From the NCBI GenBank assembly GCA_016787605.1, contig JAEUUE010000140.1, positions 59,592 to 123,591 on the forward strand: a stretch of 64,000 nucleotides of DNA. Reading direction: 5' to 3'. The notes beneath the pieces were generated by a model that had not been told where the DNA came from, made no database searches, and was given only the letters and a program-made list of their open reading frames with translations. The stretch comes from Cyclobacteriaceae bacterium (GTDB lineage: Bacteria; Bacteroidota; Bacteroidia; Cytophagales; Cyclobacteriaceae). Of the stretch, positions 56,960-62,044 are shown piece by piece. The position numbers were made by a program, and so were the translations under genes. The stretch's first letter is position 1; every line of letters starts with the position of its first letter.

Positions 56960-57721
56960 TTACTTCCCGTAGATCTGATTCAGCACCCCGGCGAGCCGGA
57001 TGCCGGCCTGAAGCATGCGTTGCTTCGCGTACGAGAAATACCGGTAGGAATACTGATAGCCGAGGTTTCCATTTCCGATATCGTAGACTTGCGGGCGCAG
57101 CGTCATCGACTCATGGGCCCAGTCGCGCACCGAGGCCGCCTGCCACTTCTTCACCGTGGCCTTGTCGGGCTGACCCAGGGAGGCGGCCAGCTCGGTATAG
57201 CTGAGTTTGGTGTCATCAATCATCTCGGTGTCCCACACCCGGTGCAGGTTGGACTCATTGCGAAACCATTTTACTTTCACGTCGTTGCCGCCCCGGTCGC
57301 CGGGCCTCCCCACATGCAGCGGCTGGTGGATATCACCGACGAGGTGCACCAGCATTTTCAATGTCTCCAATTCCTGCTTTTTACTTAGTTTCCTGCTCTT
57401 CAGATCGGTGATGAATTTTTCAATCATGGCGACGACTTGCCCATCCGGTTTGGAGGCCACATCCTCGTACTTCTTACCATCGGGTATCGTGGTATAATGC
57501 CAGGTGATGGCATAATCATAGGTGGAGTCTGACCGGATTTCATCCATCCACGTGCTTACCATAGCCAGCGACTCCTGCCCCAATACAGAAGCGATTTTTT
57601 TTCTTGCTTTTGACGTCAGGTACTGGTCGGCAATATGGCCTGTCGCCCGGTGACCCGTGGCACCCCAGCCGAAGGCGTCCGCCGTCATCGCCAGGAAAAA
57701 GAGGATAGTCAGGTATCTCAT
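56960..57721 (-). CDS. S1/P1-type nuclease, secreted
   Basis: 253 residues from the ATG at 57721. The signal peptide ends DAFG, so the mature protein begins with Trp19 (WGATGHR), whose amino and carbonyl groups bind zinc in this family. Other zinc ligands are visible in TGHIADQYL, TWMDEIRSD, HLVGDIHQPLHVG, GGNDVKV and the helix with NLHRVWDTEMI. These enzymes cut single-stranded DNA and RNA and act as 3'-nucleotidases outside the cell membrane. Likely phosphate or nucleotide scavenging. Single-gene unit. Confidence 0.92.
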   Translation of the reverse strand: MRYLTILFFLAMTADAFGWGATGHRATGHIADQYLTSKARKKIASVLGQESLAMVSTWMDEIRSDSTYDYAITWHYTTIPDGKKYEDVASKPDGQVVAMIEKFITDLKSRKLSKKQELETLKMLVHLVGDIHQPLHVGRPGDRGGNDVKVKWFRNESNLHRVWDTEMIDDTKLSYTELAASLGQPDKATVKKWQAASVRDWAHESMTLRPQVYDIGNGNLGYQYSYRYFSYAKQRMLQAGIRLAGVLNQIYGK

Positions 57722-57786
57722 AGGTTCGAATTCCGCCGCAAAATAACGCTTTATCGCGATGGAACTTAGGCCAGCACCCGCGATCA

Positions 57787-57817
57787 TTGGACAGTCTGTT
57801 GTCCGACCCTATCTTTG
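57787..57817 (+). promoter_or_regulatory. Candidate promoter TTG-N20-TATCTTTG for the ligase cluster
   Basis: TTG (57787-57789) and TATCTTTG (57810-57817) are 20 bases apart, fitting the Bacteroidota -33/-7 pattern, and the -7 box ends eight bases before the ATG of the DUF155 gene. Best promoter candidate in the window; probably drives the four-gene run to 62044. Confidence 0.45.
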
Positions 57818-57825
57818 ATTAACCC

Positions 57826-58599
57826 ATGAAACTGTCTGCCATCCGCGTCGCCAACCAACTCGATCTGAAGGGAATCAAATCCTTCCTGGAGGCCAGGCCC
57901 ATTGCCGACACGTCGTCCGAGCTATTCTATTCGATGGCACCGGACCGGTACCAGTATTTTTTCAATTACGGCGTTATCGTATTTACCGGCTACTCGGAGG
58001 AAGAGATCAAATTGACGGTAAAGTCGATTCACCCCTTTCTAAAGAGCCCGAACGGGTGGCTTCGCGATGATCATGATATCACCGTCAGGGATGGCGCGGG
58101 CATGGAGTTCCTTTTTGACCAGATGATCGTCGACCATATCGACGACAAAGTGGTGCGCATCGGGATGTTCAACCTGGCGCAGTCTGTCGCCCTTGACCAC
58201 TACCACCATACCTCCGAGCACCTGCTTACGGAAATCCGGGGCTTTACCAATCACCTGGAGGCCACGGGAAAGCTGAAGATCAGCCGGAGGAACATGATGA
58301 AATTCATCGGCCGCGCCCTGAACACGCAAAATGACATAGCCGACAACATTTACATTTTCGACGCACCGGACCTGGTATGGGACAATGAATACCTCGACAA
58401 CCTTCACAAAGGCCTGATGAAACACTACGACCTGCGTGTTCGTTTCAGCGAAGTCGAGTACACCCTGCGAATCATTGAAGACAACTTGCATGTATTTCGG
58501 GAAATCTATTCCCAGCGGGAGAGCAGCTACCTGGAGTGGATCATTATTCTTCTGATTCTGGTGGAGGTGGTTAACCTGTTTCTCTCCAAATTGCTCTGA
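57826..58599 (+). CDS. DUF155 / RMND1-family membrane protein
   Basis: 257 residues. The pattern YQYFFNYGVIVFTGYSEEEI, then GRALNTQNDIADNIYIFDAPDLVWDN, abbreviated here as NDIADNIYIFDAPDLVWDN, and a single C-terminal membrane helix (about 238-255) match the DUF155 family, which includes yeast RMD1 and mitochondrial RMND1. RMND1 supports mitochondrial translation; bacterial members have no known role. The soluble part faces the cytoplasm if the C-tail inserts. First gene of the run with a C39-like peptidase (2-base gap), RLAN-RimK and GCS2 proteins, suggesting it anchors or localises that system. Confidence 0.82.
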   Translation: MKLSAIRVANQLDLKGIKSFLEARPIADTSSELFYSMAPDRYQYFFNYGVIVFTGYSEEEIKLTVKSIHPFLKSPNGWLRDDHDITVRDGAGMEFLFDQMIVDHIDDKVVRIGMFNLAQSVALDHYHHTSEHLLTEIRGFTNHLEATGKLKISRRNMMKFIGRALNTQNDIADNIYIFDAPDLVWDNEYLDNLHKGLMKHYDLRVRFSEVEYTLRIIEDNLHVFREIYSQRESSYLEWIIILLILVEVVNLFLSKLL

Positions 58600-58601
58600 C
58601 C

Positions 58602-59315
58602 ATGTCCCACCAGAAGGCCCTCTTCCTGGATTTTGATATCAAGGCACAACCCGACGAGGTGACTTGCGGCCCGACGTGCCTCCATGCGCTATATAACTAT
58701 TACGGCGACGGGATCGGCCTGAAACAGGTGATCAAAGAAGTGAAGCAGCTGAAGAACGGCGGGACGCTGGCGGTGATGATGGGAAACCATGCGTTGAAAC
58801 GCGGGTACAAAGCCACCATCTTTACCTACAACCTGCACGTGATGGATCCTACCTGGGCCAATCTCTCCACGCCTAAGGTGATCGAGAATCTCGGGCGGCA
58901 AATGCGCTACAAGCACAAACGCCGGAAACTCGTGGTAGCCAGCAAGGCGTACATCAATTTTCTCAAGTCTGGTGGACGGCTCGAATACGCCGAACTGGAC
59001 GAGCACCTCATCAAGGGCTACCTGAAGAAATCGATACCTGTGATTGCCGGGCTGAGCGCGACGTACCTGTATGGCACTCCCCGCGAAGTGCCGACAACCA
59101 ACAAATTTGACAGCATCCGCGGGGAGCCGGTCGGCCATTTTGCCATCATCAATGGGTTCACCAATGAGGGGGGCCGCGTTTTCCTGGCCGACCCCATGAA
59201 TCCCAACCCGCTCAAGTCTCAATATTATAGCGTAACCTTCGACCGGTTACTAAACAGCATCATGTTGGGGATTGTAACCTATGATGCTAACTTACTGATT
59301 ATCGAGCCGAAGTAA
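58602..59315 (+). CDS. C39-like (papain-fold) cysteine peptidase
   Basis: 237 residues without signal peptide. The active-site segment PDEVTCGPTCLHALYNYYG near 17-35 has the oxyanion Gln-like position replaced by Asp-Glu context and the nucleophile Cys in TCGPTC. The catalytic His lies in VGHFAIINGF near 186 and the Asp in LADPMNPNP near 203. C39 domains cut leader peptides after double-Gly motifs in bacteriocin exporters, but no ABC or membrane domain is attached here. In this cluster it may trim, transfer or hydrolyse amide products of the two ligases (inference). It lies two bases after DUF155 and 39 before the RimK gene. Confidence 0.78.
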   Translation: MSHQKALFLDFDIKAQPDEVTCGPTCLHALYNYYGDGIGLKQVIKEVKQLKNGGTLAVMMGNHALKRGYKATIFTYNLHVMDPTWANLSTPKVIENLGRQMRYKHKRRKLVVASKAYINFLKSGGRLEYAELDEHLIKGYLKKSIPVIAGLSATYLYGTPREVPTTNKFDSIRGEPVGHFAIINGFTNEGGRVFLADPMNPNPLKSQYYSVTFDRLLNSIMLGIVTYDANLLIIEPK

Positions 59316-59354
59316 CCCCCACCCGACTCCCCCCGCACGTTTCGTGCTTCCCCC

Positions 59355-60803
59355 ATGCTTAAACTGATTGTTGTAGATAAGCCCAAACACTGGAACCTGC
59401 GGCTCGACGACGTGGAGGTGATCACCCCAGGACAATACATCACCCAGGAAGCCTACCAATCCGGCAAGAATCTCAAGGTCCTCAATCTGTGTAAATCGTA
59501 CCAGTACCAGAGCGAAGGGTATTATGTCTCCCTGCTTGCCGAGGCACGCGGCCACAAGGTACTGCCAGAGGTCTCCACGATCCAGGACTTCAGGTATCCC
59601 TCCATCCTTCGCGACGACTCGCTGGAGTTTGACGATCTCATCCAGGCCACCTTCCGGAATGAACCTTATGACAAGGTGGAATTCAACGTTTACTTCGGGC
59701 AGACGCAATCCGAACACCTCAACAAACTAGCCCTCCAGCTTTTTCAACTCATCCAGGCTCCCCTCGTGCGGGCCAGCTTCTCCAAGAAGACCAAGTGGGT
59801 GCTCCAGGGAATCCGGCCCGTGAGCCTGAACGAAATGCCGGATTCGGATCAACCCCTGCTCGAAAGTGCGCTGGAAAAATACCTCTTGCGAAAACGCGAC
59901 TACCGGACCGACAAGAAGAAATACGACCTGGCTATTCTCATTAACCCGGAGGATCCCAACCCTCCCTCCGACGACCGCGCGTTGAAACGTTTCTACAAAG
60001 CCTCCCTTGAAGCGGGATTCAATACGGAATTCATCACCAAAAACGACTTCGACAAGCTCATCCAGTACGATGCACTGCTCATCCGCGAAACCACGAATGT
60101 GAACCATCACACCTTCCGTTTCGCGAAGAAAGCCGAGGCCCTTGGACTGGCCGTTATCGACGACCCGGAGTCCATTTCCAAGTGCTCCAACAAGGTCTAC
60201 CTCCACGAACTGCTGAACGCAAACAAGATATTGACCCCTCACTCCCTGGTGCTCACCGAAGAGAACTGCAGCCAGGTTCCCGGAAAGCTCAACTTCCCCT
60301 TCATCCTGAAGCAGCCCGACGGGGCCTTTTCCAAGGGTGTCGTCAAAATCCATACGGCCGAGGAATTTGAGAAAGTGCGGGAAAGCATGTTCGAGAAATC
60401 CGACCTCATCATCGCCCAGGAATTCCTGCCCACACCCTTCGACTGGCGCGTGGGGATTATCGACGGCCAGGTGATTTTCGTATGCAAATACTTCATGGCC
60501 ACCAAGCACTGGCAGATTGTGAACTGGAGCGCCAAAAAGGAAACCTCCCGCGACGGCTCTGTGGAATGCGTGGCCGTTGACCAGGCTCCTGCCGGTTTGC
60601 TGAAAACGGCGCTAAAGGCCGCTTCGCTGATTGGTAAGGGGCTCTATGGCGTGGACATGAAAGAGGTGGAAGGAAAATTCTACGTGATCGAAGTCAATGA
60701 CAACCCCAACATCGATGCCGGCATCGAAGACAAGATTCTCAAAGACAAACTCTACGATCAAATCATGGAAGTGATGATGACCAAAATCCGATCGGCCAAA
60801 TGA
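59355..60803 (+). CDS. RimK-family ATP-grasp ligase with RLAN N-terminal domain
   Basis: 482 residues. The N-terminal 200 residues (MLKLIVVDKPKHWNLRL, YQYQSEGYYVSLLAEARGHK) match the RLAN domain known only next to RimK-type ATP-grasp domains. The C-terminal 280 residues are ATP-grasp: CSNKVYLHELL, FPFILKQPDGAFSKGVVKI with the ATP lysines, EFLPTPFDWRVGIIDG, and the metal ligands in YVIEVNDNPNI. RimK enzymes ligate glutamate or other amino acids to carboxyl groups through acyl phosphate. The substrate is unknown. The stop overlaps the GCS2 start by four bases, so the two ligases are made together. Confidence 0.88.
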   Translation: MLKLIVVDKPKHWNLRLDDVEVITPGQYITQEAYQSGKNLKVLNLCKSYQYQSEGYYVSLLAEARGHKVLPEVSTIQDFRYPSILRDDSLEFDDLIQATFRNEPYDKVEFNVYFGQTQSEHLNKLALQLFQLIQAPLVRASFSKKTKWVLQGIRPVSLNEMPDSDQPLLESALEKYLLRKRDYRTDKKKYDLAILINPEDPNPPSDDRALKRFYKASLEAGFNTEFITKNDFDKLIQYDALLIRETTNVNHHTFRFAKKAEALGLAVIDDPESISKCSNKVYLHELLNANKILTPHSLVLTEENCSQVPGKLNFPFILKQPDGAFSKGVVKIHTAEEFEKVRESMFEKSDLIIAQEFLPTPFDWRVGIIDGQVIFVCKYFMATKHWQIVNWSAKKETSRDGSVECVAVDQAPAGLLKTALKAASLIGKGLYGVDMKEVEGKFYVIEVNDNPNIDAGIEDKILKDKLYDQIMEVMMTKIRSAK

Positions 60804-62044
60804 CCGCACCCGGAAGACTTCACCTTTTCCAGGCCTTCGGTGTCGAATTGGAGTACATGATCGTCGATCGTGACTCGCTCCAGGTGCGCCCCATTGCCGA
60901 CGAGCTCCTGAAAGCCAAGCTGGGCGAATACGGGGGCGACTTTGAGAACGGGATGGTCACCTGGTCGAATGAACTGGTGACTCACGTCATTGAACTGAAG
61001 TCGACAAAGCCGGAACCCGACCTGCCCGCCTTGTCCAGGGAGTTTGCTGAAAACGTAAAAGAGATCAACCAGGTGCTTGAATCCTGGAATGCCATGTTGT
61101 TGCCCACAGCGGCGCATCCATGGATGGACCCGCTCACCGAATCACGGCTATGGCCTCACGATAACAACGAGGTCTATGAAGCGTACAACCGCATATTCGA
61201 CTGTCGGGGTCACGGCTGGTCAAACCTCCAGAGTACGCATCTTAACCTGCCCTTTTACGACGACGAGGAGTTCGCCCGGTTGCATGCCGCCATACGCGCC
61301 ATCCTCCCCCTGCTCCCTGCCTTGTGTGCCAGTTCACCCATCCTCGGAGGTCAGCCCACCGGCCTGCTCGACACCCGGCTGCACTACTACCGGACGAACC
61401 AGCGCGCCATCCCCTCCATTACGGGCAAGGTGATACCGGAAGCTGTCTTTTCGAAACGCCAGTACTTCAACACCATCTACGAGCGGATCAAGGCGGACAT
61501 TGCTCCCTTTGACAGCGACAGCATCCTCGATCCCATCTGGGTTAATTCTCGCGGCGCTATTCCCCGCTTCGACCGAGGGTCGATAGAAATCCGGATCATG
61601 GACGTCCAGGAGTGTCCATCGGTCGATCTTGCCATCCAGGCGCTGGTCATTGAAACCATCCGCGCCCTCGCCCAGGAAAAGTTCTCAACCACCCAGGATC
61701 AAATGCAGCTTTGGACGGAAAATCTCGCCGCGCTCCTGGAAGAAGTGGGGCGGGGAGGCCCTGAGGTTCCCATTAACGAACCGGACTACCTGGCTGTCTT
61801 CGGGCTTGGAACGGGAGCAACCGCAGGCCAGGTTTGGGAGCACATTCATCAACAGCTCACCAAACAGACTGGCAAACTCGATACCTGGAACTCCACCATT
61901 CTTGCCTTACTGAACAAAGGTCCTTTGGCCCGAAGAATCCTGAACGCGCTGGCGGGCAGTTCGGATCCGGATCCTATGACCAGTGTTTACAGGAGCCTGG
62001 CAGATTGCCTGGCCACCGACCGCATGTTTTCCGGCAAAATTTAG
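60800..62044 (+). CDS. Glutamate-cysteine ligase family 2 (GCS2/YbdK-like) protein
   Basis: 414 residues. The carboxylate-amine ligase fold of the glutamine-synthetase type: FGVELEYMIVD at the N-terminus with metal-binding Glu residues, MVTWSNELVTHVIELKS, HGWSNLQSTHLNLPF and RFDRGSIEIRIMDVQE. YbdK-type members join glutamate to cysteine or other amines using ATP. Here it is coupled (ATGA overlap) to an RLAN-RimK ligase and follows a C39-like peptidase, so it probably makes part of a small peptide or an isopeptide tag rather than glutathione; no gshB is present. Product unknown. Confidence 0.85.
   Translation: MTAPGRLHLFQAFGVELEYMIVDRDSLQVRPIADELLKAKLGEYGGDFENGMVTWSNELVTHVIELKSTKPEPDLPALSREFAENVKEINQVLESWNAMLLPTAAHPWMDPLTESRLWPHDNNEVYEAYNRIFDCRGHGWSNLQSTHLNLPFYDDEEFARLHAAIRAILPLLPALCASSPILGGQPTGLLDTRLHYYRTNQRAIPSITGKVIPEAVFSKRQYFNTIYERIKADIAPFDSDSILDPIWVNSRGAIPRFDRGSIEIRIMDVQECPSVDLAIQALVIETIRALAQEKFSTTQDQMQLWTENLAALLEEVGRGGPEVPINEPDYLAVFGLGTGATAGQVWEHIHQQLTKQTGKLDTWNSTILALLNKGPLARRILNALAGSSDPDPMTSVYRSLADCLATDRMFSGKI

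Follow-up and report, generated by a model that had tools for sequence, protein, structure and literature searches.

A conserved C39-RLAN/RimK-GCS2(-FGase) gene cassette and its reduced form in a Cyclobacteriaceae genome

RLAN-RimK ATP-grasp ligases reportedly occur, according to work of Iyer and colleagues in 2009, in gene neighbourhoods where they stand with GCS2 ligases and papain-like peptidases, and the N-acetylglutaminylglutamine amide (NAGGN) osmolyte system joins a GNAT-ATP-grasp protein to an amidotransferase and an M42 peptidase. In the open-licence PubMed Central literature we found no paper treating the gene set described below, and none for the RLAN domain (PF14401). We analysed a locus of this kind in a 64,000-nucleotide stretch (the window) of a Cyclobacteriaceae bacterium, positions 59,592 to 123,591 of contig JAEUUE010000140.1 in assembly GCA_016787605.1, where an initial annotation had proposed a compact operon of a DUF155 membrane anchor, a C39-like peptidase, an RLAN-RimK ligase and a GCS2 ligase. 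The last three of these genes form one conserved unit, and the window carries a reduced version, with three genes, of the widespread C39-RLAN/RimK-GCS2(-FGase) cassette, in which FGase is a protein of the N-formylglutamate amidohydrolase family (PF05013); DUF155 looks like a lineage-specific neighbour that is dispensable and stands outside the conserved core.

The C39, RLAN-RimK, GCS2 and FGase genes

An RLAN profile search of 395 genomes of the phylum matched 44 (G000 included), and up to 12.5 kb was fetched around each of the other 43 loci; 29 of these encode an RLAN-RimK protein of 400-600 aa (hereafter standard), 12 a longer one (642-718 aa) and one a short one, while the RLAN match of the last, G370, falls below the Pfam cut-off and has no gene model. 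GCS2 follows RLAN-RimK in the same-strand run at all 29 standard loci and C39 precedes it at 26, with FGase directly after GCS2 at 19 and DUF155 upstream in the run at only three. The picture is similar in a family sample of 78 genomes, 25 with RLAN, in which 21 loci were read anew: C39 was found at 20, GCS2 at 20, FGase directly after GCS2 at 18 and DUF155 at three. Such linkage counts are lower bounds, as greedy gene choice may drop overlapping genes (the C39 of L095 was lost in this way). A broader relative set, the best 80 of 167 loci, is biased toward the window's kin, and several family loci apparently come from the same genomes as named loci within it. The neighbourhood survey across Bacteroidota that the initial annotation had suggested thus bears out C39 as a partner of RLAN-RimK and does not bear out DUF155, so that its four-gene unit has to be redrawn, without DUF155 and with the FGase that it had overlooked.

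The window contains the following features, the four genes lying on the strand and at the positions first reported for them, separated by 2 and then 39 bases and with the last two overlapping by four; the family matches of all four proteins exceed the Pfam gathering scores.

57826..58599, plus strand: DUF155 protein of 257 aa with a C-terminal hydrophobic helix (PF02582, 7.8e-31; Kyte-Doolittle hydropathy 2.54 at residues 239-257)
58602..59315, plus strand: predicted C39-like/papain-fold cysteine peptidase or transpeptidase, 237 aa (PF13529, 2.9e-10)
59355..60803, plus strand: predicted RLAN-RimK ATP-grasp ligase, 482 aa (PF14401, 3.7e-45; PF08443, 1.4e-10)
59433..59867, plus strand: RLAN domain of this ligase, residues 27-171 (PF14401)
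60186..60719, plus strand: RimK-type ATP-grasp core of this ligase, residues 278-455 (Pfam and alignment)
60800..62044, plus strand: predicted GCS2-family carboxylate-amine ligase, 414 aa (PF04107, 1.4e-26)
57787..57817, plus strand: putative Bacteroidota-type promoter (TTG at 57787-57789, a 20 bp spacer and TATCTTTG at 57810-57817)

C39, RLAN-RimK and GCS2 are therefore contiguous on one strand here, and the source genome has no FGase (PF05013) anywhere, so none adjoins GCS2; genome-wide profile searches matched RLAN once, DUF155 once and GCS2 twice. Near-zero gaps recur among relatives, with medians of 5 for C39-RLAN (n = 107), -1 for RLAN-GCS2 (n = 126) and 4 for DUF155-C39 (n = 29, fetched loci with DUF155 directly before C39), some genomes entering these statistics twice; because the same pairs are so closely spaced in the fetched loci, the four-gene arrangement is more than chance. 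The closest named RLAN relative, L031, is a Cyclobacteriaceae metagenome-assembled genome (86% RLAN identity). On an RLAN tree of 107 rows, from which 21 near-identical rows had been removed (FastTree support only; long branches at L111 and L195), the fewest changes required are 5 for C39, 13 for FGase and 11 for DUF155.

Active-site patterns are conserved throughout the unit. The C39-like protein matches PF13529 (Peptidase_C39_2) at 41.3 bits (cut-off 24), has no N-terminal hydrophobic stretch by hydropathy, and retains in 34 of 34 aligned sequences Q16, C22, H179 and D197, which we take to be the catalytic Gln, Cys, His and Asp of C39-like peptidases; its structure model (predicted local distance difference test score 89.5) places the fold level between phytochelatin synthase and C39 peptidases. 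Two further families are matched among its homologues, PF09778 by 33 of 34 (best 4e-7) and PF11814 by 26 of 34. The ligase belongs to the RLAN-RimK class at 153.7 bits for PF14401 (cut-off 25) and 41.5 for PF08443 (cut-off 21), K280, K319, D434, E446 and N448 are invariant in 32 aligned sequences, and the nearest folds to its ATP-grasp part are LysX/ArgX/RimK (fold search over residues 187-481). Pfam detects no acetyltransferase domain in it, and the GNAT of the NAGGN system is accordingly absent from this protein. In GCS2, E16, E18, E263 and R265 are among the residues invariant in 35 aligned sequences, and a sequence-profile search of the PDB returned no match at E<=0.01.

The FGases of five relatives scanned match PF05013 at 2.9e-18 to 1.6e-23. 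Residues E10, H11, H34, D38, H122 and N171 are invariant in 52 aligned copies and H118, E198 and E200 are conserved in 51 of the 52 (L045 numbering), a pattern that would be compatible with a metal site. Against HutG N-formylglutamate deformylase (TIGR02017, cut-off 278.75) L045 scored 17.6 bits and L094 15.5, with no hit for L117. In genomes of the window's family, one type of PF05013 protein scores 193-230 bits and those adjoining the cassette about 66-82, like some that stand elsewhere. Two neighbouring PF05013 matches lie beside the cassette in one genome (G397:C242:8569-11055), and in the Ignavibacteriales locus (L094:10705-11964, plus strand) a fusion joins the FGase with an HD domain similar to the RelA/SpoT hydrolase (TIGR00691, 7e-9).

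Among the 80 loci of the broader set, the full C39-RLAN-GCS2-FGase order extends to Fibrobacter intestinalis (L077), Ignavibacteriales (L094), Leptospiraceae (L098), a PVC bacterium (L099), Desulfobulbaceae (L107, with C39 split across two frames, and L109), Balneolaceae (L108) and a record named Proteobacteria bacterium (L110). Long RLAN forms behave differently: all 12 of the phylum sample stand without C39, GCS2 and FGase in the same-strand run. The three that were scanned, L139 (5440-7401, plus strand), L144 and L149, are GNAT-RLAN-RimK fusions, and their GNAT domain may replace the work of a partner enzyme.

Proposed function and its alternatives

The gene set, its order and distribution, the conserved residue patterns and the folds together define the cassette, and from them we infer substrates, reaction order, product and cell location. 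On balance we lean toward a cytoplasmic system that makes and breaks a small glutamyl peptide of non-ribosomal origin, or a glutamyl tag. GCS2 would activate the gamma-carboxylate of glutamate and couple an amine or an amino acid to it, giving a gamma-glutamyl amide; RLAN-RimK would use ATP to activate a carboxylate on this product, or on a glutamyl side chain, and attach another amino acid; the C39/papain-fold enzyme would form an acyl-enzyme on the product, followed by hydrolysis or transfer; and FGase, where present, would act as a second amidohydrolase, probably dependent on a metal, in recycling the glutamyl part.

Several observations weigh against this interpretation. RLAN-RimK reaches no curated NCBIfam cut-off among 25 of the 28 families listed, scoring 19.9 bits against the RimK S6 glutamate ligase (NF007764, equivalog cut-off 331), and GCS2 reaches none in 11 of 11 families listed, scoring 60.5 bits against the YbdK carboxylate-amine ligase (TIGR02050, subfamily cut-off 176.4). 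Neither enzyme can therefore be given a known activity. For the C39-like protein, Foldseek alone places C39 domains and PeiR above phytochelatin synthase, the Pfam label of the window's protein is C39_2 rather than phytochelatin synthase, and the phytochelatin synthase family PF05023 is matched at E<=1 by only two of the 34 that were aligned, neither of them the window's. FGase does not adjoin GCS2 at 10 of the 29 standard phylum loci and C39 is missing at three, in Fibrobacter the locus itself lacks C39 in 15 of 19 cases, and a C39 profile search of 12 of these 15 genomes, taken as assembled with no completeness given, found none at all in five; neither hydrolase is therefore obligatory. In the other seven (G484, G486, G487 and G489-G492) the same search, which recovered both linked controls (L077 and L082), found a full cassette-type C39 away from the RLAN-GCS2 locus, at E 7.8e-94 or better, and this tendency of C39 to persist when unlinked supports a shared function.

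A tentative possibility is that the cassette encodes a widespread and hitherto undescribed pathway of gamma-glutamyl peptides, a non-thiol counterpart of glutathione and phytochelatin chemistry. GCS2 and the LysX/RimK-like ligase would then build a glutamyl oligopeptide serving as an osmolyte, a cofactor tail or a signal, and the phytochelatin-synthase-like cysteine enzyme and the metal amidohydrolase would trim or recycle it, in lineages spanning Bacteroidota, Fibrobacter, Desulfobulbaceae, Leptospiraceae and others. If the cassette does serve a glutamyl peptide, many environmental bacteria own an unassigned pathway of this type whose gene set, two ligases and two hydrolases, is now defined, and the deletion of three or four genes would be a way to its product.

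We regard it as unlikely that the target is instead a host protein, glutamylated by RLAN-RimK after priming by GCS2 and relieved of its glutamyl residues by the C39 protein or FGase, in the manner of RimB and RimK on S6. The ATP-grasp core does resemble RimK and LysX/ArgX, enzymes that act on protein carboxylates. Known GCS2 enzymes, however, use free glutamate, and neither the gene maps nor the neighbours of relatives show a conserved acceptor gene next to the cassette. The removal step has a precedent in RimB, which is able to cleave glutamates added by RimK (PMC12239564).

DUF155 and the promoter region

The initial annotation had DUF155 tether the system to the membrane, and a version in which it anchors or serves the three enzymes we consider improbable. 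Its C-terminal hydrophobic helix would suit such a role, and so would its place only 2 bp before C39, with the median gap of 4 (n = 29) for this pair among relatives. Within the family, RLAN occurs in 11 of 14 genomes with DUF155 where 4.5 would be expected (25 of 78 overall; Fisher p 1e-4, kinship uncorrected), three of the pairs (G401, G420 and G453) lying on different contigs; in the phylum sample the figure is five of 18 against 2.0 expected (p 0.04, kinship uncorrected). Outside the family, however, RLAN is present in one of 14 DUF155 genomes (p 1, kinship again uncorrected), no excess over chance, and the rarity of DUF155 beside standard loci has already been noted. The RLAN tree shows it near the cassette in a single clade of 36 of the 107 rows; the one other case is L074, where it lies at a greater distance. 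Whole-genome searches, of genomes as assembled, found DUF155 nowhere in eight of eight genomes with DUF155-less cassettes, the nearest relative L031 among them, and recovered two positive controls. The helix is likewise present in the 11 solo DUF155 proteins printed, and 14 solo DUF155 loci (L200-L213; gene maps, with the first residues of neighbours for six) showed no shared partner by eye.

DUF155 also occurs in three genomes without RLAN (G426, G437 and G465). Two of them carry part of the arrangement: an S1/P1 nuclease-DUF155-FGase run in G426 (L214:5224-6683, minus strand) and an S1/P1 nuclease-DUF155 pair without FGase in G437 (L215:5840-6622, plus strand), RLAN being nowhere in either genome. 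The pair downstream of each corresponds to the two genes after the full cassette in L185 (43-48% and 75-80% identical), which suggests that the ligases were lost, the loss being apparently partial in L214 and complete in L215. DUF155 as a core member was rejected on distribution, tree and whole-genome searches, against the contrary family co-occurrence, and as a membrane anchor it is not supported, being rare beside the cassette, separable from it and equipped with the same helix when alone. A lineage-specific accessory role may nevertheless apply. Mitochondrial RMND1 is a relative of DUF155, whose function should not be assigned from this neighbourhood alone; a false lead is in this respect weakened.

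The best promoter candidate of the window had been placed upstream of DUF155. As a sigma-70 site it carries no weight, a scan of 8 kb giving three sites and shuffled sequence 4.5 +/- 2.1, but a TTG-N20-TATCTTTG motif, a putative promoter box of Bacteroidota type, lies at the same place. The TATCTTTG element begins 16 bases and ends 8 bases before the ATG, so that, were this the promoter, the transcript would have almost no leader. In 24 of the 29 loci with DUF155 directly before C39, TAnnTTTG was counted within 100 bp upstream: it precedes DUF155 at 12, against 1.9 expected from mononucleotide shuffles, C39 at three against 1.7, and RLAN at none against 0.9. Together with the median DUF155-C39 gap, this box makes co-transcription of DUF155 with the cassette likely in the window's lineage, as judged from sequence. 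The same motif precedes GCS2 at 10 of the 24 loci against 0.6 expected, yet all ten copies fall within the end of the RLAN coding region (nine exactly at -28, the other at -31), so coding conservation is the most likely explanation and we rejected it as a promoter. In L032, where C39 is the first gene, a box lies directly before C39 that resembles, with similar flanks by eye, the box before DUF155 in L033. An inverted repeat in the promoter spacer (57787-57806), considered as an operator, was absent by eye from the 14 relatives printed.

Divergent from DUF155 lies an S1/P1 nuclease gene (56960-57787, minus strand), which accompanies 34 of 120 loci, DUF155-less ones included, and is a recurrent neighbour in the window's clade. 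A defence system was also considered and rejected, PADLOC giving no family for any of the four proteins at E<=1.

Comparison with known systems

The least probable alternative, in which the product is a thiol resembling glutathione or phytochelatin, draws on the similarity of its fold set to gamma-Glu-Cys ligase, ATP-grasp synthetase and phytochelatin synthase, but the source genome encodes the bacillithiol synthase BshC (437.9 bits, cut-off 265.8) and so probably makes bacillithiol, and GCS2 reaches no glutamate-cysteine ligase cut-off (28 bits against the cyanobacterial-type TIGR02048, equivalog cut-off 249.05). The likeness to glutathione synthesis and phytochelatin synthase is one of folds, a GCS2 ligase, an ATP-grasp enzyme and a papain-fold enzyme of gamma-glutamyl peptides; the cassette differs in falling below the curated cut-offs and in having FGase.

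Like the RimK-RimB pair of Pseudomonas, the cassette combines a peptidase with a ligase of the ATP-grasp superfamily. RimB is described as an aspartic retropepsin-like peptidase (PMC12239564), whereas the cassette has a C39/papain fold in its place and GCS2 and the RLAN domain in addition. LysX/ArgX-LysW provide the nearest fold for the ATP-grasp part, but no gene for a carrier protein is seen in the cassette, and its RLAN domain is extra. The long RLAN-RimK proteins have the RLAN-RimK core in common with the window and differ in lacking C39, GCS2 and FGase in their run. As compared with the RLAN-RimK/GCS2/peptidase neighbourhoods reported earlier, the linkage of each gene has here been counted.

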